This document shows positions 3,499 through 54,952 of a DNA stretch of 64,000 nucleotides, piece after piece; position 1 is the first letter of the stretch; each line of letters starts with the position of its first letter. The notes beneath the pieces were generated by a model. The model was not told where the DNA came from and did no database searches. It saw nothing but the letters and a program-made list of their open reading frames with translations. This DNA comes from a virus, in the IMG/VR virus record IMGVR_UViG_3300032322_002561, positions 1-64,000 of that record; one strand, given 5' to 3'. A program made the translations under genes and the position numbers.

Positions 3499-4090
3499 TG
3501 ATTATTTGTTTTATTTCGTCTATTAGGTCTTGATGACTGTCCAAACTGCCTATGTAGGCTTCGTCTCGATAGTCATCTTTGCCCTGATGTGTTTTTACAT
3601 GCACGAAGCGTCGCTGTTGCCGGTACCACCACCAAAAGTTTTTCTTAGAAGGCAGTGTGGCAAAATAAAAATTTCCTGGAAAATGCCAGATCAACTGACT
3701 TTGAAGTTGTGTGGGTGCATTGGGTTGCTGCTGTATAAAACCTGGAAAATAGTCAGGTCTATAGTGCCCTTCGGACAGCATCCACGAACTCATCAGGATA
3801 TCGTTGACGTGCATTGTAGTTATCTCAAGACTTTGATCTGACGTGATATGGCCGTTGTTATCAACCACAGTGTGGTGTTGACTTTTGTTGTAGTAGTGAA
3901 TTATAAGTTGATTTTGTTCCTGTGCAAGATCTAGAGTGAATCTGCACCGCGGATTGGTATTGGTTATTTTTTGATCCAATACAAGTTGATCATTTTCATA
4001 TATTTTTATCGCCGGCCACTCTACGCTGAATTGGGGACAAAAAGTCAAGCACACTTCAAGTGGACTGTCTATATTGACATGTTTGATCAT
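3491..4090 (-). CDS. Uncharacterised protein, beta-rich, Trp/His-containing
   Basis: A 199-aa protein I do not recognise. The first 80 residues look like a beta-sandwich (alternating hydrophobic strands such as LEVCLTFCPQF, AIKIYENDQLVL and QLIIHYYNKS). A middle part has MSSWMLSEGHYRPDYFPGF, and an aromatic stretch NFWWWYRQQRRFVHVKTHQ leads to an acidic helical end. No signal peptide or membrane segment is visible. Its start overlaps the stop of gp46 by four bases (ATGA), so it is translated from the same message. The N-terminal sandwich followed by aromatic residues would suit a carbohydrate- or protein-binding role, but this is speculation. Confidence 0.6.
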   Translation of the reverse strand: MIKHVNIDSPLEVCLTFCPQFSVEWPAIKIYENDQLVLDQKITNTNPRCRFTLDLAQEQNQLIIHYYNKSQHHTVVDNNGHITSDQSLEITTMHVNDILMSSWMLSEGHYRPDYFPGFIQQQPNAPTQLQSQLIWHFPGNFYFATLPSKKNFWWWYRQQRRFVHVKTHQGKDDYRDEAYIGSLDSHQDLIDEIKQIINV

Positions 4091-16183: not shown

Positions 16184-16558
16184 ATGACCACATTTATTGG
16201 ATTCAACACCATTGGACAACGCAAAAAATTCACCCTAGTGGATTTTCCCTTAATTCAACGCGATTTGCTCAATGCTTTTAACATACGTCAAGGCGAGTTG
16301 CCTGGTAGACCAGCCTATGGAACTGTGATGTGGGACTTTATTTTTGAAAATCAAATTGAAGAACTACAACGCAACGTTGAGATTGAAGTACAACGAGTGG
16401 CCGGCGGCGATCCTAGGATCCAAGTCAGCAACGTACAGGTATTCCCACAAGAAAACGGTTTGTTGATACAGTTACAAATCACTATTTTACCCACCACTAA
16501 CGCAGAAATTCTCAGCATATTTTTTGATCTGCAACAACGTCGTGCCAGCTACATCTAA
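16184..16558 (+). CDS. 25: gp25-like baseplate wedge protein
   Basis: A 124-aa member of the GPW/gp25 family, close to the length of T4 gp25 (132 aa). Visible landmarks are the N-terminal FIGFNTIGQRKKFTLVDFPL, the middle GELPGRPAYGTVMWDFIFEN and the C-terminal strand pair VQVFPQENGLLIQLQITILP. In contractile tails this protein forms part of the wedge core and primes sheath polymerisation. The stop codon lies in the left arm of a 9-base inverted repeat. A perfect late-promoter motif is immediately upstream. Confidence 0.88.
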   Translation: MTTFIGFNTIGQRKKFTLVDFPLIQRDLLNAFNIRQGELPGRPAYGTVMWDFIFENQIEELQRNVEIEVQRVAGGDPRIQVSNVQVFPQENGLLIQLQITILPTTNAEILSIFFDLQQRRASYI

Positions 16559-16608: not shown

Positions 16609-19600
16609 ATGGCAAAAACCACAAGACAAACTGCAATATTTGGCGTAGAGGACTGGAAGCAGATCTATCAAACCTATCGTGAGGCTGATTTCCAGAGTTA
16701 TGATTTTGAAACTCTGCGCAAGAGCTTTATTGATTATCTGCGCCTGTACTATCCTGAAACTTTCAATGATTATATTGAAAGCAGCGAGTTTATTGCCCTG
16801 CTAGATGTGATTGCATTTATGGGTCAAAGTCTGGCCTTTCGCACCGACCTAAACACACGTGAAAATTATCTAGACACCGCCGAACGCAGGGATTCGGTCA
16901 CACGTTTGGCCAACTTGATCAGCTATACTGCCAAACGCAACACAGCCGCTTCAGGATTCTTAAAAGTGTTTAGTGTGCAGACCACAGAAAATGTGATAGA
17001 CTACACCGGCACCAATCTCAGCAATGTCACAGTGGATTGGGCAGATCCCACTAATCCAGACTGGCAGGAGCAATTTACCACAATTATCAATGCGGCCTTG
17101 GTAGACAGTCAAAAAATTGGTCGCCCTGCTAATCGTCAAACCATTCTGGGTGTGCGAACCGACGAATACAGCATTAATCTTGTGCCTGGGTTTTTGCCAG
17201 TGATTCCCTATAATGCCACCATAGATGGCATTGCCATGCCTTTTGAAGCTGTAACTTCAACATCGGTAGATCGTGACTACATTTATGAACCTTCTCCAGT
17301 GGCCAGTTCGGTGTTTAATGTGCTGTACAAAAATGATCAACTGGGATTTGACAGTGCTAATACTGGCTATTTCTTTTATTTCAAACAGGGCACACTACAA
17401 AACCAAGACTTCAATCTCAGCGAGCGCATAGCCAATCGAACTGTGAACATCAACATAGAAGGCATCAACAACGAAGATCGTTGGCTGTTTCAACTAGACA
17501 ACGTGGGCAATATTTCGCGTGAGTGGACCTATGTGGAAAATATCTATTCTGCAGCCGTGGAACAAACGGCCGGTCTAAGACCCATTTACTCTACCACAAG
17601 TCGTGCCAACGATCAAATCACCATGGTATTTGGCGATGGTGTTTTCAGTGAAATTCCTGTGGGCATATTCCGCGCCTATGTGCGTGCTTCAAACGGCTTG
17701 CAGTATATTATCAACCCAGAAGAAATGCAAAACGTTGTGTTGCCTATAAGTTATATCAGTCGGTCTGGCAATCTAGAAACCATTACCTTTACTTGCGGCA
17801 TCACAAGACCTGTCAGCAATGCACAAAGTCGAGAACCCATTGCAGAAATCAAGCAACGTGCACCAGCTAGATACTACACACAGAATCGCATGGTCAACGG
17901 TGAAGACTATAATTTGTTTCCGTTTACCTTGTACAACAGCATCATAAAGAGCAAGGCTGTGAATCGTGCCAGCATTGGCACCAGCAGATATCTTGACCTA
18001 GTGGACAATACCGGCAAGTACAGTTCAACCAACAGTTTTGGCAGCGATGGCGGATTATGGAATCAAGACATACTGCCCACAATCTTGTTTTCTTGGACCA
18101 ATCGCAATGAAATTGCCGATGTAATCACCAATCAAATTCAGCCCAAGATCTTGGAAAGCACCATGAAGCAATTTTATTATGCAAACTTCCCAAGGCAATT
18201 GGTCAACAAATTTGATTTTGTATGCCAATCTACCACAGCTACCTTGAACACAATCACAACCAGTAGCACAGAATTTTTTGCTTTGGCTGCTAAAGGACAA
18301 ATTGTGGCAGGCTCGCCCATAGTGTTTACAGACACCTTGGGTGGACTCACTGCTGGGTTGCCATATTTTGTACGCACCATCAATGCTACAAATTCAACTT
18401 TTACAGTCAGCACGGCTCCCAATGGACAAAACAGTATTTTGACCACGGCCACGGGTGCCATGAATGCCACAGTGACCTTGACCACAGGCGGCACAAACTG
18501 GAATCAAAGCACTACATTGGCAAACGAAACCACAGGGTTTTTTAGAAATGCCGCACTAGAACCAGTGTCGGTGGGTGAATCCAATTCCACTGTGGTAAAA
18601 TATGCTGTGGTTGGCAGCCTTATAAGATTTACGCCACCCACAGGCTACTACTTTGATGTCAACAATAGATTGCAACTGGGAGTGCCAACTAGAGCCGGAG
18701 AAAGTTTGGAAATTTGGGCCAGCCCCATACGCATCATAGGCGATGGCGATGGCGATGGTCTGGGCAATTTGTCTGATGGAAGTGGACCAGTGATCTTGAA
18801 CAATTTTGTGCCAACTGGTGCTATCATGGACATTGTTATTCCAGTGTTTGCCACAGATCTTCCACTGAGTATTCAAACACAAATGACCGAACAATTTTTG
18901 TTGTTTAGAAATTTTGGTCTTGGCTACGACAACGACGGTTCAATAACCGGAGTACCATACTCGTGGTACTTGATAACATCTACCAATCTTGATGTAGATG
19001 CCACCTGGAGCGAACAGTATGCTGGCAATACCACTGGAGCCAATTTAGATGCAAGTTGGCTGATTCAATTTGTAGTGGTAAATCAAAATTATACCATAAC
19101 CTTTCGTGGACTCAGCTACAGCTTTGGCAGTGTGCTACAAACACGCTTCTTTTTCTATGATGGACAACAAATATATGACAGTCGCACCGGTACAGTGATC
19201 AAGGACTATATCAATGTGCTGGCTGTAAATACTCGGCCAGACTCTGCCTTGCCCTTGAGTGGCGATATCATAATGAACATAACTGGTCAGCCAGTTGAAA
19301 GTGATGGCTATGTTGATGACTTCCAGGTTCAAGTGGGATTCAGAGACAGCGACAATGATGGCATTCCTGACAATCCAGATTTCTTTGATGAGATTGTGGC
19401 GGCCAATATTAACTCCAATCAAAAATATGTGTTTTTTCAACAGACCGTGGATTTTGATAACTTACAACGTTATCTCTTGGTAGAACCTGGAGTAGTCAAC
19501 AGTGATTATGCCACGCTGGATGATATTGAAGCAGAAAAATTCAAATGGAGTCCGGGTCAGGTATTTTATGCATATACCGAAAATACATTCTATCGACTCA

Positions 19601-20304
19601 GTAGAGAAGTCACAGGCAATTTGATCTTGACCGAAGTCACAGGATGGCTGGCTCGTGTTGGACGACAAAGTTTGTACTATCAGTATCGACACAATTCGCC
19701 CTTGACTAATCGTATTGATCCAGGCACCACCAACATCATTGACCTTTACGTGGTCACACAGGAATACTACACAGCCTATCAGAACTGGTTGCGTGATACT
19801 ACCAATACCATACTGGAACCCGAACAACCCAGCATAGATGATCTTAACACAGCTTATCAAAATCTCAACGACTACAAGATGCTGAGTGACAACGTGGTCC
19901 TTAACTCTGTAACATTTAAACCCCTGTTTGGCGCCAAGGCCGAGGCCACACTGCGTGCCACCGTCAAGGTGATTCGTGCGCAAGGATCAACTGCCAGCAC
20001 CAGTGAAATAAAAAGTTCTGTAGTGGCACAAATGAACAGCTATTTCAGCATAGATAAATGGAATTTTGGAGATACATTTTACTTTTCAGAACTGGCAGCT
20101 TTTCTGCATAGACAATTGGGTAGCATTGTAAGCAGTGTGGTTCTAGTACCTCTGGATCCTGAAAAATCCTTTGGCGACTTGTATGAAATACGCAGTCAGC
20201 CCAATGAAATTTTTGCCAATGCTGCTACAGTCGACAACATTGACGTGATTGAAGCTTTGACCAGCACCAATCTACGCACAGCCCCAGGTAGTGGAGTGAT
20301 TTAA
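16609..20304 (+). CDS. 6: gp6-like baseplate wedge protein, enlarged
   Basis: A 1231-aa version of gp6, the protein that joins wedges into the inner baseplate ring. The N-terminus is typical: DWKQIYQTYREADFQSYDFE, then SSEFIALLDVIAFMGQSLAF and NTRENYLDTAERRDSVTRLA. T4 gp6 has 660 aa; the extra length comes from insertions. One insertion (about residues 535-625) is a module that recurs in the giant downstream protein. Two Asp-rich loops look like calcium sites: GDGDGDG at 711-717 and DSDNDGIPDNPD at 914-925, the latter matching a thrombospondin type 3 repeat. The C-terminal domain (SVTFKPLFGAKAEATLRATV onward) again resembles gp6. The stop shares one base with the next ATG. Confidence 0.85.
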   Translation: MAKTTRQTAIFGVEDWKQIYQTYREADFQSYDFETLRKSFIDYLRLYYPETFNDYIESSEFIALLDVIAFMGQSLAFRTDLNTRENYLDTAERRDSVTRLANLISYTAKRNTAASGFLKVFSVQTTENVIDYTGTNLSNVTVDWADPTNPDWQEQFTTIINAALVDSQKIGRPANRQTILGVRTDEYSINLVPGFLPVIPYNATIDGIAMPFEAVTSTSVDRDYIYEPSPVASSVFNVLYKNDQLGFDSANTGYFFYFKQGTLQNQDFNLSERIANRTVNINIEGINNEDRWLFQLDNVGNISREWTYVENIYSAAVEQTAGLRPIYSTTSRANDQITMVFGDGVFSEIPVGIFRAYVRASNGLQYIINPEEMQNVVLPISYISRSGNLETITFTCGITRPVSNAQSREPIAEIKQRAPARYYTQNRMVNGEDYNLFPFTLYNSIIKSKAVNRASIGTSRYLDLVDNTGKYSSTNSFGSDGGLWNQDILPTILFSWTNRNEIADVITNQIQPKILESTMKQFYYANFPRQLVNKFDFVCQSTTATLNTITTSSTEFFALAAKGQIVAGSPIVFTDTLGGLTAGLPYFVRTINATNSTFTVSTAPNGQNSILTTATGAMNATVTLTTGGTNWNQSTTLANETTGFFRNAALEPVSVGESNSTVVKYAVVGSLIRFTPPTGYYFDVNNRLQLGVPTRAGESLEIWASPIRIIGDGDGDGLGNLSDGSGPVILNNFVPTGAIMDIVIPVFATDLPLSIQTQMTEQFLLFRNFGLGYDNDGSITGVPYSWYLITSTNLDVDATWSEQYAGNTTGANLDASWLIQFVVVNQNYTITFRGLSYSFGSVLQTRFFFYDGQQIYDSRTGTVIKDYINVLAVNTRPDSALPLSGDIIMNITGQPVESDGYVDDFQVQVGFRDSDNDGIPDNPDFFDEIVAANINSNQKYVFFQQTVDFDNLQRYLLVEPGVVNSDYATLDDIEAEKFKWSPGQVFYAYTENTFYRLSREVTGNLILTEVTGWLARVGRQSLYYQYRHNSPLTNRIDPGTTNIIDLYVVTQEYYTAYQNWLRDTTNTILEPEQPSIDDLNTAYQNLNDYKMLSDNVVLNSVTFKPLFGAKAEATLRATVKVIRAQGSTASTSEIKSSVVAQMNSYFSIDKWNFGDTFYFSELAAFLHRQLGSIVSSVVLVPLDPEKSFGDLYEIRSQPNEIFANAATVDNIDVIEALTSTNLRTAPGSGVI

Positions 20305-23300
20305 TGGCACGCACACGGTCAGTAGATTTTTTACCAGAAATATTTAGAACCGAAGCCAACAAACAATTTTTGTCGGCTACATTGGACAATCTCATTCAAG
20401 AACCCAAGTTCAAAAAGACTCAGGGGTTCATTGGACGCACTGTGGGACCTGGTGTCAACCCCAATGACAAATACGTGGTTGAACTTGATAAAACCAGAGC
20501 TGACTATCAGCTTGAACCGGGTGTAGTCAGTCTTAGACCCGACACCAACGAAATACAAGAAGTAATAACCTATCCTGGCATGGCCGATGCCATATCATTT
20601 CAAGGTGGTCAGGGAAATCGTGCCGATCGCCTGTACGAGAGTGATTACTATACTTGGGATCCGTTTGTAGACTTTGACAGTTTTGTAAACTACAGCCAGT
20701 ATTATTGGGTGCCCAACGGACCAGACGCAGTTGATGTGTCGGCCACGGGTGTTCCCATTACCAACAGTATCACAGTCACACGTGAAAATGGCGTGTACAC
20801 ATTCAGCGGAGTAGTAGGCGACAATCCAACTCTGGAACTAGTGCGTGGCGGAAATTACACCTTCAACGTGGCACAAAACGACAAAGAAACTGTGAACTAT
20901 CGTGTGACCAACAAAGGCAACAGCAGTTACACAATTGATTATCAAGACAATCCTTCCTTGACCTTGGTGCGTGGTAACACCTATGTGTTCAATCTAACTC
21001 TGCAGGGAATTTTTCCGTTTTGGATCAAGACACAGCCGGTGTTGGGCTTGGCCAATGCCTTTAATACTGGAGTCAGTCGAAATGGTAGTACCATAGGTTT
21101 AATTACCTTTACAGTACCACAAGACGCCCCCGACACTCTGTACTATATTGCAGAAAATCAAATCAACATGCAGGGCGTGCTCAACATTGTAGACGGCATA
21201 CCAGGCACAGGGCCAGGCTTTTGGATTCAGACCAGTCCTGGTGTTACGGGGCAAGTCCCCACAGCACCAAATATTTCCAGCAGAGATGTGTTTGGAGTCA
21301 TTAACAACGGTGAGGATCTTGGCACAGTAACGTTTAATGTACCCCTCAAAACAGCACAACAATACTACTATGATCTTCCAGATTTTGGCACACCTGTAGA
21401 TCTTGTGACAGATTTGAAATTTGATCAGATCAATAATCAACGCTTGGATGTGTTTCTGGCCGAATATGGCGGCATTGACGGTGTCAGTGCTTTGGCCAAT
21501 AGAACCTTGATTTTCACCAACCCATTGACTGATGCTGTTGACGGTGGCTGGCAACGCACAACAAGATTTGACCCTTTAGGTCAGGATGTTGCCAACAATG
21601 GTTTGTTGGGCAGTTTTGATTCCACTCTGTACAGTCAAACTTCAGAGATACCTGTAGATCAACGTTATCAACTGTATCAAATTACCTTGGATATCAGCAA
21701 CGGATATGCTTATATGCAGTTGAATCGCATTGCCGATATTCCTGTATTGAACAAATTTACTATAAGATACGGCGATGTGTACAGCAGTACTAACTGGCTC
21801 AAAGACAGCAGCGGAAGATTTCAACAGATACCGTTGCTGACTGCTGTGAATGATATTCTATACTATCAAGACGGTAATGACCCTGAAATTTTTGGCGAAA
21901 TAAAGCTGATAGATGTAGAGGGAAGAACCACGCTTGACATCAACGATATCATTGGTAAAAAGAATTATACCAGCCCCAACGGTGTAGTATTCACCAATGG
22001 ATTAAAGGTAGTTTTTCGTGGTCTAGTTGAGCCTCCCAACTATAGCTCGGGCAGTGTAGTATTTGAATGTTCGGCCACGGCTGATGAAATCAATGCTATA
22101 ACCACAACCAACACAGACATACTGTATGTGGGTCAGGAAGTTTCGTTCCAGGCACCCACACTGGGCGGTCTTGTAGCTGGACAAACCTACTATGTGCAAA
22201 GCATTGTAAATCAGTTTCAGTTCACTGTGAGTGACATGATCGGTGCTGGTGCTGTGGCCTTGTCCACAGCCACAGGGCTCATGACAGCGGTCAGTGTGAA
22301 TTATCGTGAATATTATGTAGCCGGTGTTGGCACTGAAATAAATTTGATTCCGGTCACAGAACTTAATCTATATGAACCCTATGTGACTGATGCCAACGAC
22401 AGCACCGTGATTCGGGAACCCGCAACACCCGACTATATCACTATAGATCGAAACAGCATGAGCCGCAATCCCTGGAGTAGAAGCAATCGCTGGTTCCATG
22501 TAGATGTGATCAATGCCACGGCTGCCTACAACAACACTGTGCCAATACTGGACAACAATCGTAGAGCCAAACGTCCAATTTTGCAATTTAGACCCAACAT
22601 CAGACTGTTTAACATGGCACCTGAGTGTGTGGAACCAGTGGATATCATAGATTTTGTAGTGGCCGATGCATTTGGTACTGTGCAAGGCAGCACCGGATAT
22701 ACCGTAGACGGATATGAATTGGTCAATGGTAGTCGCATTATTTTTGCAGCAGACACCGATGCCGAAGTGCGCAACAAAATTTGGTTGGTAGAATTTATCA
22801 TACCCAACAGCGCCACCCTGATCACGGCAGATAATTTGTCGCCTGGGTTGGTGTACACAATTATATCGTTAGGCAACACCGATTGGAACGCAGTGGCTGG
22901 CACCACTGGAATCAGCTATGCTGTTGGCAACATTATCACTGTGGCAGAAGTTGGAACTGGTACTGGTCTGGCTGAATTTAATCAGCCTGTGATTAATTTG
23001 ACATTGGCTCCAGATGGTGTTGTTGCGCCAGATCGTGCCACACATACCATGAATGGTGAAACTGGACAAGGCATTTCATATTGGTATGATGGGGTTGAGT
23101 GGATAGTGGCTCAACAAAAACTTGGTGTCAATCAGGCACCCTTGTTCAATGTGTACGACGCGGATGGAGTCAGCTTCAGTGATCAAATAAAATATCCGTC
23201 CAGCGATTTTGTAGGTAGCAAACTGTTCAGCTATGCACCTGGTGAAACCGGTATTCTTGATCCTGTGTTGCAGATTCCGCTCAAGTATCTTACTCTTGAA

Positions 23301-26300
23301 AACGTGGGCGATATTGTGTTTGATAACAATCTCTACAAGGACACATTTGTTTACACACGTGAAAATGTTAGTGTGACTCTAGACATCAGTTCAGGATCTG
23401 CTAGAGAATACAATGTGTCCATGGGCGTGTCTAGCACAAACGGCATAAACAGTACAACGAGCACGACATCTGTCTCAACTTTGACTGCTACCGGTACTGA
23501 AGAGTTTGCACGTCTTATAGGTTGGCAAAATGCAGTGACTACCAGCAAGACCTACCAGCAGTTTAAATTTATCTATGACGGAACCACGCTCAAACTGGAT
23601 GTGGTTGTGCTTGATCAATTTGCCAGCGCGGTTCCTGTAATAAAAATTTATGTTGGCAGTCAGTTCCAAGACCCCAGCACGTACATCTATGCTACCAACA
23701 CTGACAGCACCACAATTACACTCAACAAAGAGTATGTGCTAGGCGATATTGTTGAAGTCTTGGTGTTGAGTGATCAGGTCAGCAAGGTTGCATTCTATCA
23801 AGTACCCTTGAATTTGGAAAACAATCCGCTGAACATAAACAGTCAAAGTTTTAGTCTGGGCACCATAAGACAGCACTATCAAAGCATCTGTGAAAATTTA
23901 CCAGATATTTCAGGCGCAATTTCTGGGGCCAATAATACCAGAGACTTGGGTGACATTGGACCGTATGGTTTGATTATTTTGCAACAGAGTGCACCGTTGA
24001 CGTTGGCTGGATATTTCTTGCGCAGTGAAAAATACAATATTTTTAATTCTCTAACTTATAACAGCCGAGAGTATATCAAATACAAAAATCAATTGTTGGA
24101 ATCAGTGACCCAACAACAAATTAATTTTCAAACAGCAGGAGAAATATTAGATGCAGCCATAGCTGACATCACCGCTGGTCGAGTAGAAACACAGTCGTTT
24201 TACTGGAGTGACATGTTGCCGTCGGGTGCTGTGTATATTCAAAACACATACACGGTGTCGTTTGTTACTACCAATGTATTTGACACCGTGCAGGTATACA
24301 ACTTTGCTTCAGCCAACTATCTGGGACTCAGTGTGTATGTGAATGACGTGCTTATTACTCGTGGCATGGACTACGTAGTGGCCACTGACGGACCACGTTT
24401 GACTATTATCAAAATGTTAGAAATTGGTGACACAGTGACTATACGTGAATACAGTTCCACTTATGGCACATTCTGTCCCAATACTCCTACCAAAATGGGA
24501 CTGTATCCGGCTTATCTGCCAGAAATAACCACACAACGCACTACCACAGGTGAACAAACTGTCTTGATTGGTCATGATGGTAGTGTCACAAAAACTTTTG
24601 GTGACATACGTGATCAAGTATTGTTGGAGTTTGAAACTCGAATCTACAACAACATCAAACTGGATGGCAACCCTTGTCCCTTGTTAGCAACCAACGTACT
24701 ACCTGGACAGTTCCGTGTCACCGGTTACAGCACAGATGAAATCAACAATATTTTGAACACAGAATTTTTGAGCTTTGTGGCCACTAACAAACTAAACTAT
24801 CGCGAACAAGATTATAATGCCAACAATGAATTCAGCTACAATTATAGTGGTGCTCAAGGCCGACTCGACAACAAAAATTTGCTAGGGGCCTGGCGTGGTA
24901 TCTACAGATACTATTATGACACGCAACAACCAGAATCTACGCCTTGGCAAATGCTGGGCTTCAGTGAAAAACCTGTCTGGTGGGACGTGACTTATGGCAC
25001 TGTACCCTACACCAGTGAAAACTTTGTGTTATGGGATGACTTAGAAGCTGGCTTGGTGCGTGATCCAGCTGGTGCTTATATTTTGCCTGAATACGCACGC
25101 CCAGGCCTAAGCGAAGTCATACCCACTGGTGATGAAGGACAATTATTGAGCCCATTCAACAGCGTGGTAGGCACTTTTGATCAAAATCAATTCCGCAAGA
25201 GTTGGAGCCTAGGAGATGGATCTCCAGTGGAAGCTTCGTGGTGGAACAGTTCTAGTTATCCATTTGCAGTCATGCGCTTGTTGGCTCTTACAAGACCGGC
25301 CAAGTTTTTTGCCTTGTTTGCTGATAGAGATTTATATCGTTACAACACAGAGTTTGATCAGTTCTTGTACAATAACCGCTATAGATTGGATGCCAACGGC
25401 GTTGAAGTTTACGGCGACGGTATCAGCAAGGCCAGTTATATCAATTGGATAGTTGACTACAATCGACAAAGCGGTTTAAACAGCACGGAATTATTAACCA
25501 ATGACTTGGCCAATCTTGATGTGAGGTTGTGCTACAGAATGGCCAGCTTCTCAGACAAGAAATTCATAAAGCTATTCACTGAAAAATCCAGTCCAGAGTC
25601 TACCAATACCAGTTTCCTGATTCCAGACGAAAGCTATGCCTTGCTGTTGTACAAAAATCAACCATTTGATCGAGCCAGTTACAGTTCAGTGCTGATACAA
25701 CAAGTTCCGGGCGGATATGCAGTGTTTGGCTACAGCACCTATCAGCCCTATTTTAACATCTTGCAAAGCCAGGCCACTGGAAAACTACGAACCATTAGCA
25801 CAGCTGGAGTCAGTGTGCGAGTTCCTACCTTCTACACCAGTCGTGTTGCACAGATACCATATGGTTATGTGTTCACTGACATCACAGCAGTCAGTGACTT
25901 TTTGTTGAGTTATGGCAAGTATCTTGAAGGGCAAGGACTTAGCTTTACCAACACTGCCAATGGTTATCAGCTGGACTGGAATCAAATGGTAACTGAATTC
26001 CTGTACTGGAGTCAACAGGGTTGGGAAGACAATTGTCTTATTGCTATCAATCCCTTGGCACTCAAGCTCAGTGTCAGTAAACCCTTTGCCGTGGTTGACG
26101 ATATACAGGCACAGACTTCAGAAAATATTTTATTGGATCAAAACCGCAAAGAGTTACCTACTCGCAATCTCAATATTGTGCGCATGGGCAATGAATTCAC
26201 AGTGGAGCCAGCCAATGATCAAACCCTAAGTTTTATAGATCTAAAATATACCAGCTACGAACACATGATTGTGCTAGACAATGTGTCAGTATTTGGTGAT

Positions 26301-29300
26301 TTGATCTACAATCCCCCTACCGGAGCCAGGCAAAGTCGTCTTAATCTTGTAGCTGTGACCACTACCGAGTGGAACGGCAGTGTGGATGCTCAAGGCTTCA
26401 TAATAAATCAGGACAATGTGGAGCCCTGGAGCGGTCATAGAACCTATGCCAAGGGCGAAATTGTCAAGTACAAAGACAACTATTGGTCAGCTGCTACAAT
26501 TGTTCAGCCCAGTGAAGTTTTTGATTTTAATGACTGGTTGCAGAGCGATTACACACAGATTGAACTTGGACTTTTACCCAACCTTGCCAACAAAGCCGAT
26601 CAATTGGTCAATTCCTACAACATTAACACAGCCAATCTTGAACGCGATACGGATCTATTAAGCTATGGATTGATTGGATTCCGACCAAGGCAGTACCTGG
26701 CCGCAATTAATCTTGACGATGTAAGCCAGGTCAACGTTTATCGACAGTTCTTGGGCACCAAAGGCACGCTGTTGTCAGCTGAATTATTCAAACAGGTCAA
26801 TCTAGGCAAAGAGTTAGCCGAATATGAAATTTTTGAAAATTGGGCAGTGCAACGAGCTGTGTACGGTGCCAATGCCAATCGCAGCTATTTTGAATTACGG
26901 TTAAATCGAGCTTTGCTCAACGCCAGTCCCAGTCTGGTGCAAGTTGTGGCATCTCAACAAACCAGTGAAGCTGATCAGTCCATACAAGTGGGCGATATTT
27001 GGCGTCAAAGTTACAAAATCAACAGCCCGGACATATTGCCTACCACGGTAGCTGTACCCGCAGACACTGCCTTGCCCACAGCTGGCTATGTGAATCTTGA
27101 CGATGTTGATATCACAGTGTTTGACATCAGTGACAGTGCCAGCCTTGAAGCCAATCTAAACGAAATTGGTGTTGGTACCAGTATCTGGGTAGCCAAGGTC
27201 AACAATTACGACTGGGACATATATCGTGCCGAAGCTGTACCGGGCACTATAAGTCACGTATGCGATAATCTTGACGGTACCAGTCGTGTGATTTTTACTC
27301 TGCAACATGGTATCACAGTTGGACAACAGGTTATTATAAGATTTTTTGACAGTGAAGTTGATGGAGTTTACACAGTTCTAAGTGTCAGTAATCTCAATAC
27401 CATCAACATAGCATTTAGGTTTACAGGCAGTAGAACCGTGGTGAATGGTATCGGCTTGGCCTTTACACTGCAAACCATGAGAGTTGCACAGGCCAGTGAT
27501 GTGATTGACCTGCCTTATGCCAATCAAATTGCAGATGGAACCACAACCTGGGTCGACGACGATGGCAACGGTCGTTGGGTAGTTTTGCAAAAACAAAACG
27601 TATTCACACCGGTTAGTGAGCTTTCACCACAGATACTGGATGCAGAAGAAAATTACGGAGTGGTGGTAAAACAAGCAATTGACAAATTTGCTGCATTTGT
27701 TGGCAGTCCACGTTATGGTTTTGGCACAGGTACTCAAACGGGTGCTGTTTACACCTATGTAAACAACTTTGGCACTGCTTATCAACCTATTAGTCCTGTG
27801 GAAAGTGGTGATGCCATAATCACTCTTGCTACTACGGGTGTTAGAAATCTTGGAGCCAGCATCGCAGTGGGTAGTCAGGCCTGGCTAGCAGCCGGTGCTC
27901 CAGGTAGTCTGGGCGGTGCTGGCCAAACCAACAGTGGGTATGTCACTGTGATTTATCGAGATTACAACACATATCAGGCAGGTGACAATCCCTATGTGGT
28001 ATGGCAATTACTGACCACACCTGGTAACATCAACACTGATCAAGGTCGTTTTGGTGCTGGCATAACCATGTGTGCCAACGAAAACTGGTTGTATGTGGCA
28101 GAGCCAGATGTAAATCGTGTTTATGCTTACAACCGCATAAATTACCAATATCAGTTTTTGTCGGCCTTGGGTGACGGCATCACCACAAGCTATGACATTA
28201 GCAACAACATACAAATTGACGAAGCCACACAGATTCAAGTCACAGTGAATGGTGTGTTACAGGTATTAAACGTGAACTACACAGTGAATATTTCATTTAC
28301 CACTGTGACCTTTACCACAGTCCCCAGCGCAGGTTCTGCTGTGCTAATTGCAAGACCATTCTTGTTACAGCTGGATTACGCTCAGTATTACAGCTTGACT
28401 GCCACTGGAGCGACAACTGGTACAGGTGCCTTGTTTTCAATCAATCGCATACGTGGCACCGTAGAAGTTGGTATTCAAGCCGGCGGTTCAGGTTATACCA
28501 ATGGTGAGACACTGACTATACCAGCCACCAGTTTTGGAGGAGGATCTTCGCCAGCCAACGATGTTACCTTTGTTATAACTGTGGTAGCTGGCAAAATTGT
28601 TCAGCTGACCGGTGTTTCCTATACTCCGCCTGCCTTGCAGAGCACATTTAGTTTGAATGAACTTTTCTTCACTGCTACCACCTTAAACAGTTTTACAGTG
28701 TTGGTAAATGATGTGATACAAAGGCCACACATTGACTACACCTTCAATGCTGGCACGCAGGATTTATCATTCCTTGTAAATCCAGGTGCCGGAGCAATTA
28801 TAAAAGTTCGTGCTGACAGTTATTTTAACTACGTGGGAGAAATCCCCACAGCTGGACTTGGTTTGCAACCTGGAGATGATTTTGGCGCCGCATTGAGTTG
28901 CACCACAGATGGTAGACAAGTCATGATTGGTGCTCCCAACTGCACCGTTGATGGCGAAGTTGAAGCCGGTTGTGTATATGTGTTTGACAGAAATGTTCAA
29001 CATTTTATCTACACACCGAGCTCCACACCTACCTTTGTGCTGGCTGGTTCAGGATTGACGCCGCTGGCTGTGAGTGTGAATGGTCAGTATTTGATTGATG
29101 AAGCCACTACAATTGTAGGCAATCCAGGCACGTACAGTGTCAGCGGTAGCACAGTGACTATCAATCAAACACTGAATGTGGGTGACAGTATTGAAATAGA
29201 AACAGACCAGTTTCGTCTATTGCAACGAATCACACAGGAACAGCCTGCACAGTACAGCAACTTTGGACAAGCAGTTGATCTATGCTCGTATAATTGCAGT

Positions 29301-32300
29301 CTTTATGTTGGAGCTCCAAACAGTAGTCTACAGGTCATTAAAGGTGGCGTGGTTGAGCGCGAAATAAATCAAGCACGTGTTTATGGTATTATAACCTCCA
29401 CAGTGTCCAATCCCACGCTTACAGCTGGTGATACCCTGCGGGTCAACAATGTTGATGTGATTATACCATCTGCCCCAAACAACAATATTGTGGGCTTGGC
29501 CAGTGCTATTAATTCTACCGCTCCAAATGCCACAGCCACAGTTACCTCAGCTGGATATCTGACCATATCTGTGACCAATATTGATGCGGCTGTGCCCGGA
29601 AACTTGTTGCAAGTGGCACCAGGCAGTGTGGGTTCAGCTTGGGCGGCCTTGGGCTTTGATATATTCAGTTACACACAAACCATATTAAGTCCCTACGCAG
29701 TTGATTTTGCTGGGTTTGGAACCAGCATTAGCTTGGACGAAACAGCAACAACCTTGATAGTAGGTGCTCCACAAGGCACCATGTATCTCATCACAATTTT
29801 TGATGATGGTACCACAGATTTTGATGCCAATGCCACAACCTTCTTTACAACCATATTGCAAAGCGGTGCGGTGTATACTTACAACTTGTTGAATTCTGCC
29901 AACAGCAGTGCCAGCAATCCTGACAAGTTTGTGTTTGGTGAACAAATCAGTATCACTGATGTGGCCTATCTTGATCAGCTGGGAGCGTCAGTGGACTACT
30001 TGAGTGGCAGTCTTTGGTTGGGTGCGCCCGGCAGTGATGTGGGCGACAGCAGCACCAGTAACTATGGAAAAGTGTTTGTTTGGCAAAATGCTGAACGACA
30101 AATGACCTGGATTCCAAAATACATTCAACAACCCACTGTGGATGTAAGACTGTTGAATTCAATATTTCTGTATGATAGAATAACATCTTCAACCACGGAG
30201 TTCTTGGATTTCTTCAATCCCTTGCAAGGAAAAATTCTTGGCGCTGCCCGACAAAATATTGACTATATTGGTGCCGTTGATCCAGCATTTTACAACGTGG
30301 GTCCACAAAATATTCTTGGGACCACATGGGCCGCCAATCACGTGGGAGAAATTTGGTGGGATATCAGCACGGTGAGATTTATTGATCCCAATCAGGATTC
30401 CATTGTGTATGCATCAAGACGTTGGGGACAAATTTTTCCTGGCAGCACAGTTGACATCTATCAGTGGATCGTGAGCACGGTTCCGCCAGCTGAATATGCT
30501 GGCCCTGGAACTCCAGCCAGTCTTGTAAGCTATACTATTAACACAGTGCTCAGTGATGATGGCTCATTCAACACGCAGTATTTTTACTGGGTACGCGGAT
30601 TACCCACAGTGGCCACACAAAAAGGCAAGACACTCAGTACCAACAGTATCAGCAACTATATTGCTGATCCACGTTCTACGGGCATAGCCTATCTTGCACC
30701 CATAAACTCCAGCACTTTTGCATTGTACAACTGTGAGAATCTTATAGAAGCACAGGACACTATTCTCAACATTGAGTTTGATCAACAACTCAACAACGAC
30801 AATGTACACGTTGAATATGAGCTGGTGGCGCAGGACAAATCCAACAGTTTCTTGAGTGACAATCTGTATAGAAAACTGCAGGACAGTTTCTGTGGTGTTG
30901 ACAGCTTTGGAAATCTAGTTCCAGATCCTACCTTGAGTCCTGCAGAACGGTACGGAGTACAATTTAGACCCAGACAAAGCATGTTTGTCAACAGATTTGT
31001 TGCACTCAAGAACTATATCACTCGAGTGAATTCAATTCTGCGTCAGTATCCTGTGAGTGAAAATAGAGTTTTGTCATTGTTGAACAGCAAAGAGCCACTG
31101 CCAGGAGTCAACAGTGGCCTCTACAATGCCAGTGTACCCACCAGAGAAATACTAGATTTCCAAAACATCTATGCCGTGCCACTGGGCTACAAGTATCTTG
31201 TGGTCAGCGATGATACCAATCGCGGTTTATGGACCATATATCAGGTCAGCCCCAATCCCACGATCTTGGACAGTTTCACCAGCACAGGATCTTTCATAAG
31301 CGGCAATACTCTCAACATTGGAGTATTGACTTCTGGAACCATTACCGTGGGTCAACTTGTGACTGGCATTGGAGTTGAAAGTGGCATTATTATTGTCAGC
31401 AACATTAATGGTGGCAGCTCAAGTGGATCAGTTTGGGTTATAAGCAAAATAACCAATGTGCCCACAACCAATATCAATGGTGCCGCACCACGTGAATTGA
31501 TACTGTTCAGGGTACAAAACTTCAACACACCTGATTACTGGAGTTATATTGATTGGTATTTGCCCGGTTACAACAGCAGTATCAAGCCCGTGGCCGAAGT
31601 CAATAACTTTTCTGAATTGACTACCTTGAATGTACCTATAGGTAGCAGTGTGCAGGTTAAAGCCAATGCACAAGGCAAATTTGAAATTTACCTACGCACC
31701 GATGTGGGTTACGAGCGTGTGGCCCTGCAGGATGGAACCATAGAAATTTCTGCTGAAATTTATGACTATGCATTGGGACGTTTTGGTTTTGACCTTGAAG
31801 TGTTTGACGCACAATATTTTGATCAAGAACCCGTGATTGAAACAAGAAAAATAATTCAGGCTATTAATGAAGAATTATTTGTTGGTGATCTAGAAATAGA
31901 AAGAAATCGAGCTTTGGTGTTGATGTTCAACTATGTGTTGAGTGAATTTTCAGCACCTGAGTGGTTGGTCAAAACCAGCCTGATTGATGTGGCGCACAAA
32001 ATTCGCGAACTGTTACCGTTCCAAAATTTCAGTCCAGACAATCAAGAATTTGTAGTGGACTATATTCAAGAAGTAAAGCCTTACCATGTGCAAGTTCGTG
32101 AATTCAATTTGCAATACTTTGGCAGTGATACCTTTCTAGGGGATCTTGTAGATTTTGATTTGCCAGCCTACTATGACACTACATTGCCAGTACCACAATT
32201 TGTGAGTCCTGTGTTGACTCCTTACGCCATAGCCACCAATGATGTAAGCAATGTATTAAGCAATGTTCCGCCCACCAGTCAGTTATGGGAAACTTGGCCT

Positions 32301-35300
32301 TATAATCAGTGGTTTGCCAACTACCTTTTGACCCTGACATCAGTGCGAGTGGCACGCCAGGGTTCTGGATACACCACTGTACCACAGATTACATTTGAGG
32401 GCGGTGGCGCAACTACACAAGCCACTGGAGTGGCTGTGATAAACAGCGTGGGTCAGGTTGTAGCCATCAATGTGACCAACCCCGGCAGCGGCTATAGATC
32501 AAGACCCACAGTCAATATCACAGGTGGTAATGGCTCCGGTGCAGAAGCCTACGCTGTGCTTGACAATCCCTTGGTTCGCGAATTCAAAACTACAATAAGA
32601 TATGATCGAGTCCAATATCAAACCAGCGTGCAAACCTGGAACAGCGAATCAACCTATTTAAATGGAACACTGGTTCGTTATGACAATCAAGTTTGGTCAG
32701 CCAGCAACATCGACGGCAGTTCTGCAGTGACCGGACCCACGTTTGATCTTGAAAACTGGACCCTGGTAGATGCAGCCACATATCAATATCCAGGATCTGG
32801 AGCAAACACTGGTCTAACCGGTGTAGATCGCACAGCAGGTTTGTATGTGCCTGGATTTAACAATCCTGGTCTAGACCTCCCACTCTTGGTTGACGGTATT
32901 GATTATCCAGGAGTACAGGTCTGGGGTGATTATTTCACTGGTACAGAGCAACTTGATGCCATATATCAAAGCAGTTTTAGTGATGTGTTTTTGGGTACCA
33001 GACCATCAGATATCAATATAGATGGTGGACAATTTGTAGGACCCTACGAAGGGCATGCTCCAGAAGAATTGGTTAATGGCAGTGAATATGACACGCTGGA
33101 TTTGAGAGTTTATACAAGGCCCGGCAGTGACTGGCAACTAGACGGTCATGGATTCCAGATAAAAAATATCAACTATATCTATCGTCCTGTCACCAGCAGT
33201 AGTCTTAGCTATGCTGGCCAGGTTGAACACCCTGTGGAACTTGTGGTCAGTAATCAAACCACAGGTAAAGTTTACAATTTTGGTGTGGATTATTTTATCA
33301 ACTATGCCACACAAAGAGTGGAAATTGTGGCTGGCAAGGCCTCCACGGGCGACATCATCAACATCAGTGTGTATGAACTAGGTGGCGGCGCTCAACTTTA
33401 TAGAGTAAATTACGTTGGTGATGAAATTCCTGAAGGCGAGTTTTTTGTTCCGGTGAGCAGTGCTGAAATACTGACTATAGCGGTGTTTGTCAACGGTGAT
33501 ATTTCACCAATTCCAAGCTGGGAGCCCTACATAGATGTGCCAGCCTGGGACATCCTTGAAGCCTATCCAGTCAACAGCATTGTTGAGGACTCAGGCACAT
33601 ATTACCAGGCCATTGACACTGTGCCAGCAGGTACCAGCATAGCTGATCAAGATTACTGGGTAGTCTACGTTCCAACCTTGTTGAGCAAGGTCACCATGCC
33701 AAATCCTCCGCTGTCTGTTGAAGGTGTTTCTGTAGTAGTGTTTGGCTATAACTATGTGGCAGCAAATCAACTCATTCGTGGACGTCAATACACTATTAGT
33801 AGCGTGGGCAACACCGAGTGGACCACGCTTGGAGCTGTCAACGATAATGTGGGCACCACATTTATAAGAAATAACATTGATCTAGGATCTTATGGTACTG
33901 GAGTGGCCACCACCAACTTTACCTGGAGTGTGCCAGTCACTCAGCAGGCCACTGTGACACCGGCCGTGATCAACATTGGTGGTGTACAACTTGTCAATGA
34001 AATGACTGGTACCAATCCTGCCAATATTATTGTCAATGTGAATGGAATCAGACTTATTCCTCCCGCTGGTATTGAGTGGATTGGCGACGGAAGCAGTGTG
34101 AGTTTTGGTTTGCCACAACGTCTGGGCGCCAGTTTCCAGCAGAGCACTATTAATGCTACGCAAGACATTCAGGTCTGGATTGATGCCATACCGCAAAGTC
34201 AGGCCGCAGGCGATTACTCGGTGACTAACTGGGATGGCAGCAACACTCCAGGTCGACAAGTGGTGTTTGCTATCCCCCCAGTACCTGGCGCAAGAATTTT
34301 AATTTCTGTCAGTACTTTGGCTGACTACAAGGTAATCACCAACAATATTGGTCCATTCCTGGCCTTGAACATAGCACCAACACTGGGCGATTTGATCAGC
34401 ATCACCAGCTGGAATGATACCAGCCAACAAAATTTGTTGACTCAAGTGTTTGTAGGACCCATTGTGTTAGGCACAATTATTGAAGAACCTTTTGACAGCG
34501 GAGACTTTGATGCTGGCCTAATCACAGGCGGACCAGGCACATTTGACTACAGCGTGGGTGCCAGTGTGGCAACCAATCAACTGTATCTTGAAGGCACAGA
34601 CATCACTGGCACCAGATTGTGGGTGACCTTGAATGGTGAACGTCTGTTTGAAGGTCAAGATTTTGTGATCACCAACAACGAAATAGTGTTGGCTCAAGGC
34701 GCCATAGCACTCAGCGATGTCTTGGCAGTAACACAATTTACTAACAGTGTGGTACCTGAAAGCTGTGCTTTCCGTGTGTTCCAAGACATGCGTGGCACAC
34801 AAGCCACATATAGAATAACTTTGGCAACCACCACGGTGTTGACTCAGGATCTTGCTGCAGATGACGACGTCATCTATGTTGAAAATGCAAGACTTTTAAC
34901 AGAGCCCAATCTAGTTGAGGGACGTCTCGGTATCATCACCATCAATGGTGAAAGAATCATGTATCGAGTGCGTGACATTGCCAACAACACCTTGAGTGAG
35001 CTACGTCGTGGCACAGCAGGCACAGCCGCAGCTCCGCATCAAGCTGGAGTAGATGTCTATGACCTGGGCCGCGGAAATATCCTGGCACCACAATATCAGG
35101 ATTTTGTTGAAAAAGATTCCACGTACGGGGATGGCAGTACCACAGTATTTGATGCGCCAAGTTTGACCACGTTTGATTTTGGCGATAGCTCTAGTATATT
35201 TGTTGAAAGTATTGAAGTCTATGTGGGCGGAACACGTCAATACACGCTGGGACCCAATCGTTTTGGTGACATTATTCCATGCCAATATCCCTATACCGTA

Positions 35301-35501
35301 GTAGATGTAAATCCTGTGACCATTGAATTTTATACCGATAGTGATCCAATTGAACCAGTGTTGCCACCACCACCCGGTGTAGAAATTACAATTTTACAAC
35401 GTAAAGGGCTGGGCTGGTACGGCCCCGGCGTAGAGGAAACCACTGGAAGAGCCCTGCAAGAAACCAACACTGCGCAAGCAAGGTTTTTGACTGATAGATA
35501 A
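20304..35501 (+). CDS. Giant gp7-like baseplate wedge protein, 5065 aa, multidomain
   Basis: This one gene takes up almost a quarter of the window. It directly follows gp6, where gp7 is expected. The start (RSVDFLPEIFRTEANKQFLS, then QEPKFKKTQGFIGRTVGPGV) resembles what I remember of gp7-type proteins of marine T4-like phages; T4 gp7 has 1032 aa. Large added parts include a module shared with gp6 (about residues 586-668), repeated VNG...DY beta modules, seven FG-GAP-like blades (about 2460-3265), GSGY-type glycine-rich repeats (near 2730, 4020 and 4060), three carbohydrate-binding-like modules (near 2045, 4105 and 4415) and two YTIxSxGNTxW modules. It is presumably a baseplate component with surface-exposed, possibly glycan-binding domains. 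The gp7 label is moderate; a structural role is near certain. Confidence 0.7.
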   Translation: MARTRSVDFLPEIFRTEANKQFLSATLDNLIQEPKFKKTQGFIGRTVGPGVNPNDKYVVELDKTRADYQLEPGVVSLRPDTNEIQEVITYPGMADAISFQGGQGNRADRLYESDYYTWDPFVDFDSFVNYSQYYWVPNGPDAVDVSATGVPITNSITVTRENGVYTFSGVVGDNPTLELVRGGNYTFNVAQNDKETVNYRVTNKGNSSYTIDYQDNPSLTLVRGNTYVFNLTLQGIFPFWIKTQPVLGLANAFNTGVSRNGSTIGLITFTVPQDAPDTLYYIAENQINMQGVLNIVDGIPGTGPGFWIQTSPGVTGQVPTAPNISSRDVFGVINNGEDLGTVTFNVPLKTAQQYYYDLPDFGTPVDLVTDLKFDQINNQRLDVFLAEYGGIDGVSALANRTLIFTNPLTDAVDGGWQRTTRFDPLGQDVANNGLLGSFDSTLYSQTSEIPVDQRYQLYQITLDISNGYAYMQLNRIADIPVLNKFTIRYGDVYSSTNWLKDSSGRFQQIPLLTAVNDILYYQDGNDPEIFGEIKLIDVEGRTTLDINDIIGKKNYTSPNGVVFTNGLKVVFRGLVEPPNYSSGSVVFECSATADEINAITTTNTDILYVGQEVSFQAPTLGGLVAGQTYYVQSIVNQFQFTVSDMIGAGAVALSTATGLMTAVSVNYREYYVAGVGTEINLIPVTELNLYEPYVTDANDSTVIREPATPDYITIDRNSMSRNPWSRSNRWFHVDVINATAAYNNTVPILDNNRRAKRPILQFRPNIRLFNMAPECVEPVDIIDFVVADAFGTVQGSTGYTVDGYELVNGSRIIFAADTDAEVRNKIWLVEFIIPNSATLITADNLSPGLVYTIISLGNTDWNAVAGTTGISYAVGNIITVAEVGTGTGLAEFNQPVINLTLAPDGVVAPDRATHTMNGETGQGISYWYDGVEWIVAQQKLGVNQAPLFNVYDADGVSFSDQIKYPSSDFVGSKLFSYAPGETGILDPVLQIPLKYLTLENVGDIVFDNNLYKDTFVYTRENVSVTLDISSGSAREYNVSMGVSSTNGINSTTSTTSVSTLTATGTEEFARLIGWQNAVTTSKTYQQFKFIYDGTTLKLDVVVLDQFASAVPVIKIYVGSQFQDPSTYIYATNTDSTTITLNKEYVLGDIVEVLVLSDQVSKVAFYQVPLNLENNPLNINSQSFSLGTIRQHYQSICENLPDISGAISGANNTRDLGDIGPYGLIILQQSAPLTLAGYFLRSEKYNIFNSLTYNSREYIKYKNQLLESVTQQQINFQTAGEILDAAIADITAGRVETQSFYWSDMLPSGAVYIQNTYTVSFVTTNVFDTVQVYNFASANYLGLSVYVNDVLITRGMDYVVATDGPRLTIIKMLEIGDTVTIREYSSTYGTFCPNTPTKMGLYPAYLPEITTQRTTTGEQTVLIGHDGSVTKTFGDIRDQVLLEFETRIYNNIKLDGNPCPLLATNVLPGQFRVTGYSTDEINNILNTEFLSFVATNKLNYREQDYNANNEFSYNYSGAQGRLDNKNLLGAWRGIYRYYYDTQQPESTPWQMLGFSEKPVWWDVTYGTVPYTSENFVLWDDLEAGLVRDPAGAYILPEYARPGLSEVIPTGDEGQLLSPFNSVVGTFDQNQFRKSWSLGDGSPVEASWWNSSSYPFAVMRLLALTRPAKFFALFADRDLYRYNTEFDQFLYNNRYRLDANGVEVYGDGISKASYINWIVDYNRQSGLNSTELLTNDLANLDVRLCYRMASFSDKKFIKLFTEKSSPESTNTSFLIPDESYALLLYKNQPFDRASYSSVLIQQVPGGYAVFGYSTYQPYFNILQSQATGKLRTISTAGVSVRVPTFYTSRVAQIPYGYVFTDITAVSDFLLSYGKYLEGQGLSFTNTANGYQLDWNQMVTEFLYWSQQGWEDNCLIAINPLALKLSVSKPFAVVDDIQAQTSENILLDQNRKELPTRNLNIVRMGNEFTVEPANDQTLSFIDLKYTSYEHMIVLDNVSVFGDLIYNPPTGARQSRLNLVAVTTTEWNGSVDAQGFIINQDNVEPWSGHRTYAKGEIVKYKDNYWSAATIVQPSEVFDFNDWLQSDYTQIELGLLPNLANKADQLVNSYNINTANLERDTDLLSYGLIGFRPRQYLAAINLDDVSQVNVYRQFLGTKGTLLSAELFKQVNLGKELAEYEIFENWAVQRAVYGANANRSYFELRLNRALLNASPSLVQVVASQQTSEADQSIQVGDIWRQSYKINSPDILPTTVAVPADTALPTAGYVNLDDVDITVFDISDSASLEANLNEIGVGTSIWVAKVNNYDWDIYRAEAVPGTISHVCDNLDGTSRVIFTLQHGITVGQQVIIRFFDSEVDGVYTVLSVSNLNTINIAFRFTGSRTVVNGIGLAFTLQTMRVAQASDVIDLPYANQIADGTTTWVDDDGNGRWVVLQKQNVFTPVSELSPQILDAEENYGVVVKQAIDKFAAFVGSPRYGFGTGTQTGAVYTYVNNFGTAYQPISPVESGDAIITLATTGVRNLGASIAVGSQAWLAAGAPGSLGGAGQTNSGYVTVIYRDYNTYQAGDNPYVVWQLLTTPGNINTDQGRFGAGITMCANENWLYVAEPDVNRVYAYNRINYQYQFLSALGDGITTSYDISNNIQIDEATQIQVTVNGVLQVLNVNYTVNISFTTVTFTTVPSAGSAVLIARPFLLQLDYAQYYSLTATGATTGTGALFSINRIRGTVEVGIQAGGSGYTNGETLTIPATSFGGGSSPANDVTFVITVVAGKIVQLTGVSYTPPALQSTFSLNELFFTATTLNSFTVLVNDVIQRPHIDYTFNAGTQDLSFLVNPGAGAIIKVRADSYFNYVGEIPTAGLGLQPGDDFGAALSCTTDGRQVMIGAPNCTVDGEVEAGCVYVFDRNVQHFIYTPSSTPTFVLAGSGLTPLAVSVNGQYLIDEATTIVGNPGTYSVSGSTVTINQTLNVGDSIEIETDQFRLLQRITQEQPAQYSNFGQAVDLCSYNCSLYVGAPNSSLQVIKGGVVEREINQARVYGIITSTVSNPTLTAGDTLRVNNVDVIIPSAPNNNIVGLASAINSTAPNATATVTSAGYLTISVTNIDAAVPGNLLQVAPGSVGSAWAALGFDIFSYTQTILSPYAVDFAGFGTSISLDETATTLIVGAPQGTMYLITIFDDGTTDFDANATTFFTTILQSGAVYTYNLLNSANSSASNPDKFVFGEQISITDVAYLDQLGASVDYLSGSLWLGAPGSDVGDSSTSNYGKVFVWQNAERQMTWIPKYIQQPTVDVRLLNSIFLYDRITSSTTEFLDFFNPLQGKILGAARQNIDYIGAVDPAFYNVGPQNILGTTWAANHVGEIWWDISTVRFIDPNQDSIVYASRRWGQIFPGSTVDIYQWIVSTVPPAEYAGPGTPASLVSYTINTVLSDDGSFNTQYFYWVRGLPTVATQKGKTLSTNSISNYIADPRSTGIAYLAPINSSTFALYNCENLIEAQDTILNIEFDQQLNNDNVHVEYELVAQDKSNSFLSDNLYRKLQDSFCGVDSFGNLVPDPTLSPAERYGVQFRPRQSMFVNRFVALKNYITRVNSILRQYPVSENRVLSLLNSKEPLPGVNSGLYNASVPTREILDFQNIYAVPLGYKYLVVSDDTNRGLWTIYQVSPNPTILDSFTSTGSFISGNTLNIGVLTSGTITVGQLVTGIGVESGIIIVSNINGGSSSGSVWVISKITNVPTTNINGAAPRELILFRVQNFNTPDYWSYIDWYLPGYNSSIKPVAEVNNFSELTTLNVPIGSSVQVKANAQGKFEIYLRTDVGYERVALQDGTIEISAEIYDYALGRFGFDLEVFDAQYFDQEPVIETRKIIQAINEELFVGDLEIERNRALVLMFNYVLSEFSAPEWLVKTSLIDVAHKIRELLPFQNFSPDNQEFVVDYIQEVKPYHVQVREFNLQYFGSDTFLGDLVDFDLPAYYDTTLPVPQFVSPVLTPYAIATNDVSNVLSNVPPTSQLWETWPYNQWFANYLLTLTSVRVARQGSGYTTVPQITFEGGGATTQATGVAVINSVGQVVAINVTNPGSGYRSRPTVNITGGNGSGAEAYAVLDNPLVREFKTTIRYDRVQYQTSVQTWNSESTYLNGTLVRYDNQVWSASNIDGSSAVTGPTFDLENWTLVDAATYQYPGSGANTGLTGVDRTAGLYVPGFNNPGLDLPLLVDGIDYPGVQVWGDYFTGTEQLDAIYQSSFSDVFLGTRPSDINIDGGQFVGPYEGHAPEELVNGSEYDTLDLRVYTRPGSDWQLDGHGFQIKNINYIYRPVTSSSLSYAGQVEHPVELVVSNQTTGKVYNFGVDYFINYATQRVEIVAGKASTGDIINISVYELGGGAQLYRVNYVGDEIPEGEFFVPVSSAEILTIAVFVNGDISPIPSWEPYIDVPAWDILEAYPVNSIVEDSGTYYQAIDTVPAGTSIADQDYWVVYVPTLLSKVTMPNPPLSVEGVSVVVFGYNYVAANQLIRGRQYTISSVGNTEWTTLGAVNDNVGTTFIRNNIDLGSYGTGVATTNFTWSVPVTQQATVTPAVINIGGVQLVNEMTGTNPANIIVNVNGIRLIPPAGIEWIGDGSSVSFGLPQRLGASFQQSTINATQDIQVWIDAIPQSQAAGDYSVTNWDGSNTPGRQVVFAIPPVPGARILISVSTLADYKVITNNIGPFLALNIAPTLGDLISITSWNDTSQQNLLTQVFVGPIVLGTIIEEPFDSGDFDAGLITGGPGTFDYSVGASVATNQLYLEGTDITGTRLWVTLNGERLFEGQDFVITNNEIVLAQGAIALSDVLAVTQFTNSVVPESCAFRVFQDMRGTQATYRITLATTTVLTQDLAADDDVIYVENARLLTEPNLVEGRLGIITINGERIMYRVRDIANNTLSELRRGTAGTAAAPHQAGVDVYDLGRGNILAPQYQDFVEKDSTYGDGSTTVFDAPSLTTFDFGDSSSIFVESIEVYVGGTRQYTLGPNRFGDIIPCQYPYTVVDVNPVTIEFYTDSDPIEPVLPPPPGVEITILQRKGLGWYGPGVEETTGRALQETNTAQARFLTDR
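27685..30090 (+). other. Seven FG-GAP-like blades within the giant protein (putative beta-propeller)
   Basis: Seven segments with the pattern FG/LG-x(3)-...-L-x-V-G-A-P-...-G-x-V-Y-x-Y occur in order. Examples are LGASIAVGSQAWLAAGAPGS, FGAGITMCANENWLYVAEPD, FGAALSCTTDGRQVMIGAPN, FGQAVDLCSYNCSLYVGAPN, FGTSISLDETATTLIVGAP and LGASVDYLSGSLWLGAPGSD, each with a following VYxY/VFxW strand in most cases. The first unit is FAAFVGSPRYGFGTGTQTGA. Seven such units would close a propeller like that of integrin alpha chains. Other beta modules are inserted between some blades. Confidence 0.6.
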
Positions 35502-54797: not shown

Positions 54798-54952
54798 TCA
54801 CTCCTTGTGTAAACATCTGTATCATGACCAATGGCGTGTGCGAAGGGTGTGGTCGCACCATTGATGAAATTGCAGAGTGGACCTTGTATACCGATCAAGA
54901 GCGGCTGACAATCATGCAAAGACTAGGACATGAGCAACATACTGGGAATTAG
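54794..54952 (+). CDS. DUF1289-family small Cys protein
   Basis: A 52-aa protein, MITPCVNICIMTNGVCEGCG, then RTIDEIAEWTLYTDQERLTI, then MQRLGHEQHTGN. It matches the bacterial DUF1289 family (PCxxxCxxxx..CxGCxRTxxEIxxWxxxxxxE), with four Cys (C5, C9, C16, C19) that should form a metal site. Function of the family is not established in my knowledge; bacterial members are often found near iron-sulphur or redox genes, which would suit a cluster full of radical SAM enzymes. It overlaps the gene before it by four bases and the carbamoyltransferase after it by 23 bases. Confidence 0.8.
   Translation: MITPCVNICIMTNGVCEGCGRTIDEIAEWTLYTDQERLTIMQRLGHEQHTGN

Follow-up and report, generated by a model that had tools for sequence, protein, structure and literature searches.

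Beta-propellers on phage tails and in receptor-binding proteins are known from phi11, PRD1 and phiKZ gp131 (PMC6115969), and a propeller has been predicted in a structural protein of a gut phage (PMC10607447). FG-GAP proteins of tailed phages are also already contained in databases. A full-text literature search on FG-GAP, phage and baseplate, with most subscription journals outside its scope, found no paper, and a search on FG-GAP, phage and tail gave none that looked relevant by title and abstract. An earlier sequence-only reading of the DNA analyzed here had stated that it knew of no T4-like baseplate protein described with such a domain; the empty literature search agrees with this statement, while the existence of phage tail propellers and of tailed-phage FG-GAP proteins narrows it. 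Because phage propellers are already known, the finding reported here is that of a known fold in a new, traceable place. The stretch of DNA that was analyzed (the window) comprises bases 1-64000 of the 236,309-base record of an uncultured virus. In a giant protein of its baseplate gene block, residues about 2432-3272 are predicted, with a probability of about 0.85, to fold into a closed beta-propeller with seven blades, of the FG-GAP (integrin alpha-head) type and carried in one piece within a single scaffold loop.

The 5,065-aa baseplate-region protein that contains the propeller (20304..35501, + strand) is encoded directly 3' of the gene for a gp6-like baseplate wedge subunit (16609..20304, +; phrog_10646, E=2e-275, and phrog_219, E=5e-24). 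Upstream lie genes for a gp25-like baseplate wedge protein (16184..16558, +; phrog_43, E=3e-8, and phrog_975, E=6e-9) and a baseplate hub/tail lysozyme-like protein (13524..15023, +; phrog_13211, E=7e-43), giving the order hub/lysozyme-like protein, one unassigned ORF, gp25-like protein, gp6-like protein and 5,065-aa ORF. The order in phage PA5oct is identical (hub lysozyme, two wedge proteins, 3,857-aa virion protein), and in phage 121Q gp6 is followed by a 3,323-aa protein. Profile comparison matched the 5,065-aa ORF to phrog_10938, 'virion structural protein' (E=2e-215), and the deposited annotation of its PA5oct homologue bears the mark ESI-MS/MS. In following gp6 within the baseplate block, the ORF takes the place that gene 7 has in T4. 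Sequence homology to T4 gp7 was sought both with one sequence and with a set of six relatives, but was dropped as unsupported, the hhalign probability being below 1% in every comparison. The description of the baseplate as T4-like holds for gene order and for the gp6-like neighbor. Elsewhere in the same protein, residues 157-298 (20772-21197), a cupredoxin-like module by eye, resemble cyanophage connectors and the end of phrog_677 (E=3e-16), a connector family of the gp9 type. Gly-rich GxGY repeats at residues about 4010-4088 (32331-32567) match stretches in several phage tail families, and also the repeats with which Atu_ph07 and Phosso occupy their slot region. Downstream of the tail genes, a radical SAM/SPASM protein and a carbamoyltransferase (51158-52378 and 54930-56384) are found among mostly unassigned ORFs.

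The slot occupied by the propeller is bordered by two scaffold anchors, one just before it (starting WVDDDGNGRWVVLQKQ, residues 2402-2438, 27507..27617) and one after it (residues 3273-3420, 30120..30563, including DPLQGKILGAARQNIDYI), both on the + strand. Between them, also on the + strand, lie blade 1 (residues 2446-2496, 27639..27791), blade 2 (2506-2562, 27819..27989), which is the poorest match to the other blades, blade 3 (2574-2616, 28023..28151), blade 4 (2852-2904, 28857..29015), blade 5 (2976-3032, 29229..29399), with a near-invariant C-x3-C (CSYNC), blade 6 (3124-3199, 29673..29900), with an FD...TxFD loop common to compact propellers (described below), and blade 7 (3214-3272, 29943..30119). 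The blade pattern across 27639-30119 is FG...(V/I)GxP...VYxY, although blade 1 starts with YG rather than FG. A strict version of the pattern, [FL]G...x(G/A)xP, occurs 5 times, whereas shuffling these residues 2,000 times gave a mean of 0.07 and a maximum of 3. Blade-versus-blade profile comparison with 63 homologues gave a median score of 28.2, against a column-shuffled null with a mean of 9.9 and a 95th percentile of 13.7; 20 of the 21 blade pairs scored above that percentile, as expected of seven tandem homologous blades. The seven FG-GAP-like blades proposed from the letters of the DNA are therefore borne out by mutual similarity, motif excess and predicted fold. The residue range originally assigned to them, 2440-3280, is correct; the start given in nucleotides, 27685, is out of frame.

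Three inserts, again on the + strand, separate the middle blades. Insert I (residues 2617-2851, 28152..28856; 235 aa) follows blade 3 and consists of two 'VNG/DYTV' modules around a Gly-rich module. Its length varies from 147 to 256 aa among relatives, in three of which Pfam Phage_T7_tail (PF03906) scores over its cut-off. Insert II (residues 2905-2975, 29016..29228; 71 aa) follows blade 4 and is a single 'VNGQYLI' module, the last strand of which is predicted to rejoin the blade. Insert III (residues 3033-3123, 29400..29672; 91 aa), after blade 5, is an alpha/beta module that is not of the VNG type and shows weak similarity to Flagellin_IN in one relative. The 'VNG' modules that had been noticed between blades 3 and 5 are real and correspond to the inserts after blades 3 and 4, with another kind of module following blade 5.

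Searches with the window's own protein gave no Pfam FG-GAP match at E<=1 or E<=10; in the window's own genome there was none over the cut-off of PF14312 (FG-GAP_2) and none to the classic FG-GAP family (PF01839), and the window segment, searched directly by sequence against Pfam and the PDB, returned nothing useful. The signal emerges only with relatives: all 10 window-type homologues scanned exceeded the curated PF14312 cut-off of 23 bits, with scores of 34-67 bits. An AlphaFold2 model of window residues 2440-3285, made with 63 homologues, reached a pLDDT of 89.2 and a pTM of 0.89; because it begins at residue 2440, most of the putative closing strand of blade 7 lies outside it. Foldseek comparison of this model with the PDB placed many integrin alpha chains among the best matches (E about 1e-7 to 1e-5), for example the integrin alpha head 4wjk (E=4.5e-7, probability 1.00), and WD-repeat and SF3b proteins were also among them. 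Viral models matched by the window model include giant-virus FG-GAP proteins (Harvfovirus, TMt 0.71) and, from an uncultured Caudovirales phage, an 'FG-GAP repeat' protein. The inserts, which at about 400 aa make up almost half of the chain, disturb the superposition and keep the TM-scores by query low (0.1-0.3); an insert-free version of the domain was therefore sought among relatives.

Because tblastn of the propeller against 50,697 phage records gave no match, the scaffold was used as the query instead. A PA5oct stretch around the far edge of the slot found 57 distant loci, and in every one of them the slot contains one or more blades that can be detected. In one large group of these loci the slot domain is compact, with about 490 aa, seven blades by eye and no inserts. 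The model of a compact homologue (pLDDT 71.6, which is modest; pTM 0.82) has 7 x 4 strands, provided that the first strand closes blade 7, and the end of the pre-slot anchor (about residues 2433-2441) matches the strand that opens this propeller. Strands fall into seven groups in both the window model and the compact model. The latter aligned to integrin alpha-5 heads, the TM-score reaching 0.57 by query and, by target, 0.62. Since it also matches other seven-bladed propellers, including those of WD-repeat proteins, the term 'integrin-like' rests on the FG-GAP sequence signal and the fold together. PF14312 matches 29 of 29 compact homologues at E<=0.01, and a compact profile reaches integrin alpha-4 by sequence alone (E=1.5e-5). 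Comparison of the compact and window propeller profiles gave a probability of 98.8%, with the last two blades in register and the earlier part shifted; such register shifts can occur with repeats. In the window's genome the window copy is the only match to the compact profile (E=1e-16). Pieces 70-77% identical to the compact propeller are also held by bacterial MAGs (Porticoccaceae, Betaproteobacteria and Ca. Pelagibacter) and are probably phage contigs binned with bacteria.

A flank-joined profile, made of residues 2402-2438 and 3270-3420, crosses the junction unbroken in PA5oct, Phosso, Atu_ph07 and SCTP-2, i.e., the site is empty in four lineages, and only its second flank aligns in 121Q and Vibrio phage 2.275. 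Blades were found in none of the six proteins of these phages. Sequence comparison thus presents the propeller as one clean insertion into a shared scaffold. A scaffold tree (804 columns, 83 sequences) contains one edge, with support of 0.998, that splits 77 carriers from the six non-carriers. This tree is unrooted and its limited sample consists of six cultured lineages and IMG/VR loci picked by similarity; the split is compatible with a single gain or, viewed in the opposite direction, with a single loss. The propeller is common to a clade of uncultured phages, and the window's branch adds modules after blades 3, 4 and 5.

The cultured phages offer some observations of their own. SCTP-2 has a LamG-like stretch by eye before or in the slot region, which matched no Pfam family. 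The Sinorhizobium phage Phosso has two adjacent giant ORFs (48338-68978, - strand) of 3,162 and 3,692 aa, which are possibly strings of several propellers; they hold most of that phage's 55 FG-GAP_2 matches, with more in two smaller ORFs at 92-94 kb. In Atu_ph07, FG-GAP_2 matches occur in gp320, a 393-aa protein that is annotated 'hemagglutinin' and encoded beside tail sheath genes; it also resembles the window propeller model (TMt 0.62).

Structure prediction, Foldseek and profile searches support the earlier proposal of an FG-GAP propeller that has seven blades, is of integrin type and bears decorations on its loops. The repeats could instead be a beta-rich linker or open array of strands, with no closed toroid, since the array is interrupted by inserts of 71-235 aa and ring closure is judged from the predicted fold. 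However, the window segment gave a high-confidence model, the compact homologue has four-stranded blades and a strand that probably closes the ring, the alignment to integrin heads spans about 500-540 columns, and the domain enters the scaffold at one point where its two ends lie side by side, all of which make an open array very improbable. The ends of a propeller meet, such that a scaffold loop can bear one undisturbed. Because its two ends lie together, the propeller could sit on the scaffold loop as a rigid knob, presumably exposed on the baseplate, and its faces might act as a platform that holds another tail component. On present sequence comparisons, docking of this kind is the most likely job, although we would put it at slightly less than an even chance. 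The alternative of a bulky structural spacer without a ligand, in a much enlarged wedge protein, draws on the unrelated material that relatives have in the same region (121Q, PA5oct and Atu_ph07, with about 130, 330 and 1,500 aa, respectively), fillings which imply that the fold as such is dispensable for a working baseplate. Retention of the domain in every sampled clade member, and the presence of motifs whose residues hardly vary (DGRQ, DRxV and CxxxC among them), argue against a spacer and leave it improbable.

The main rival to docking is a host-binding domain, in which the upper face or the inserted modules would bind a cell-surface glycan or protein receptor, comparable to the binding by integrin heads and by other phage propellers. 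This is a serious possibility, if a doubtful one: the propellers of phi11 gp45, PRD1 P2 and phiKZ gp131C occur in receptor-binding or peripheral tail proteins (PMC6115969), conservation is lowest in insert I (41% identity, with gaps in 21% of columns), and blades 1 or 2 are enlarged by 50-120 aa in some relatives. Against it, the blades and inserts II and III are about equally conserved across divergent phages, with mean pairwise identities of 50-62% versus 67% for the flanking scaffold, and, unlike a host-range accessory, the domain is retained by all clade members sampled. Furthermore, the canonical DxDxDGxxD calcium loop was not found in the window and has one match each in only 2 of 63 sequences. 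With blade conservation close to that of the scaffold, and with this loop missing, docking appears at least as likely as receptor or glycan binding. Moderate conservation combined with retention throughout the sampled clade speaks more for a conserved partner (such as a further component of the tail) or for a generic surface than for a fast-changing receptor tip. Given that all sampled uncultured relatives have the propeller and the six cultured lineages tested are without it, this phage group may use it as a part of its own for docking or attachment. A more far-reaching version, by which the propeller was gained once and became the defining host-contact organ of a large clade of uncultured marine and freshwater jumbo-type myophages, forming baseplate-rim knobs whose inserted modules set binding, seems unlikely.

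An integrin-head fold on a baseplate protein of T4 gene order, with a single traceable insertion point, is a character common to a broad group of uncultured phages and may serve as a marker for the carrier clade. The compact domain, at its reduced size, is a defined unit suited to expression and partner tests. The locus also illustrates how giant baseplate proteins can grow, with a common scaffold whose loops accept whole domains.

Among known systems, T4 gp7 has the same post-gp6 slot in gene order, but the sole alignment to it is a short KGT motif (E about 0.1), a similarity that is not significant. Judged by eye from its sequence, gp7 might itself contain a propeller in the stretch that separates the FN3-like domain from the helical one, a region in which a Pfam search gave no match. 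The phrog_10938-type proteins PA5oct gp355, 121Q 582, Atu_ph07 gp180 and SCTP-2 140 have the scaffold in common with the window protein, and the first two also share its location after gp6, whereas their slots are without a propeller. phiKZ gp131C and phi11 gp45 are likewise beta-propellers in phage tail proteins (PMC6115969), although they belong to other proteins. The FG-GAP_2 repeat proteins of bacteria and viruses (PF14312) include, by the Pfam cut-off, same-slot relatives of the window; unlike these proteins, the window sequence alone goes undetected, and its domain lies inside a giant baseplate-region protein. The integrin alpha-subunit head shares seven blades and the FG-GAP motif with the window propeller, which differs in being a phage protein with no known partner chain, in its lack of the canonical calcium loop, and in the large modules that it carries between blades 3-4, 4-5 and 5-6.
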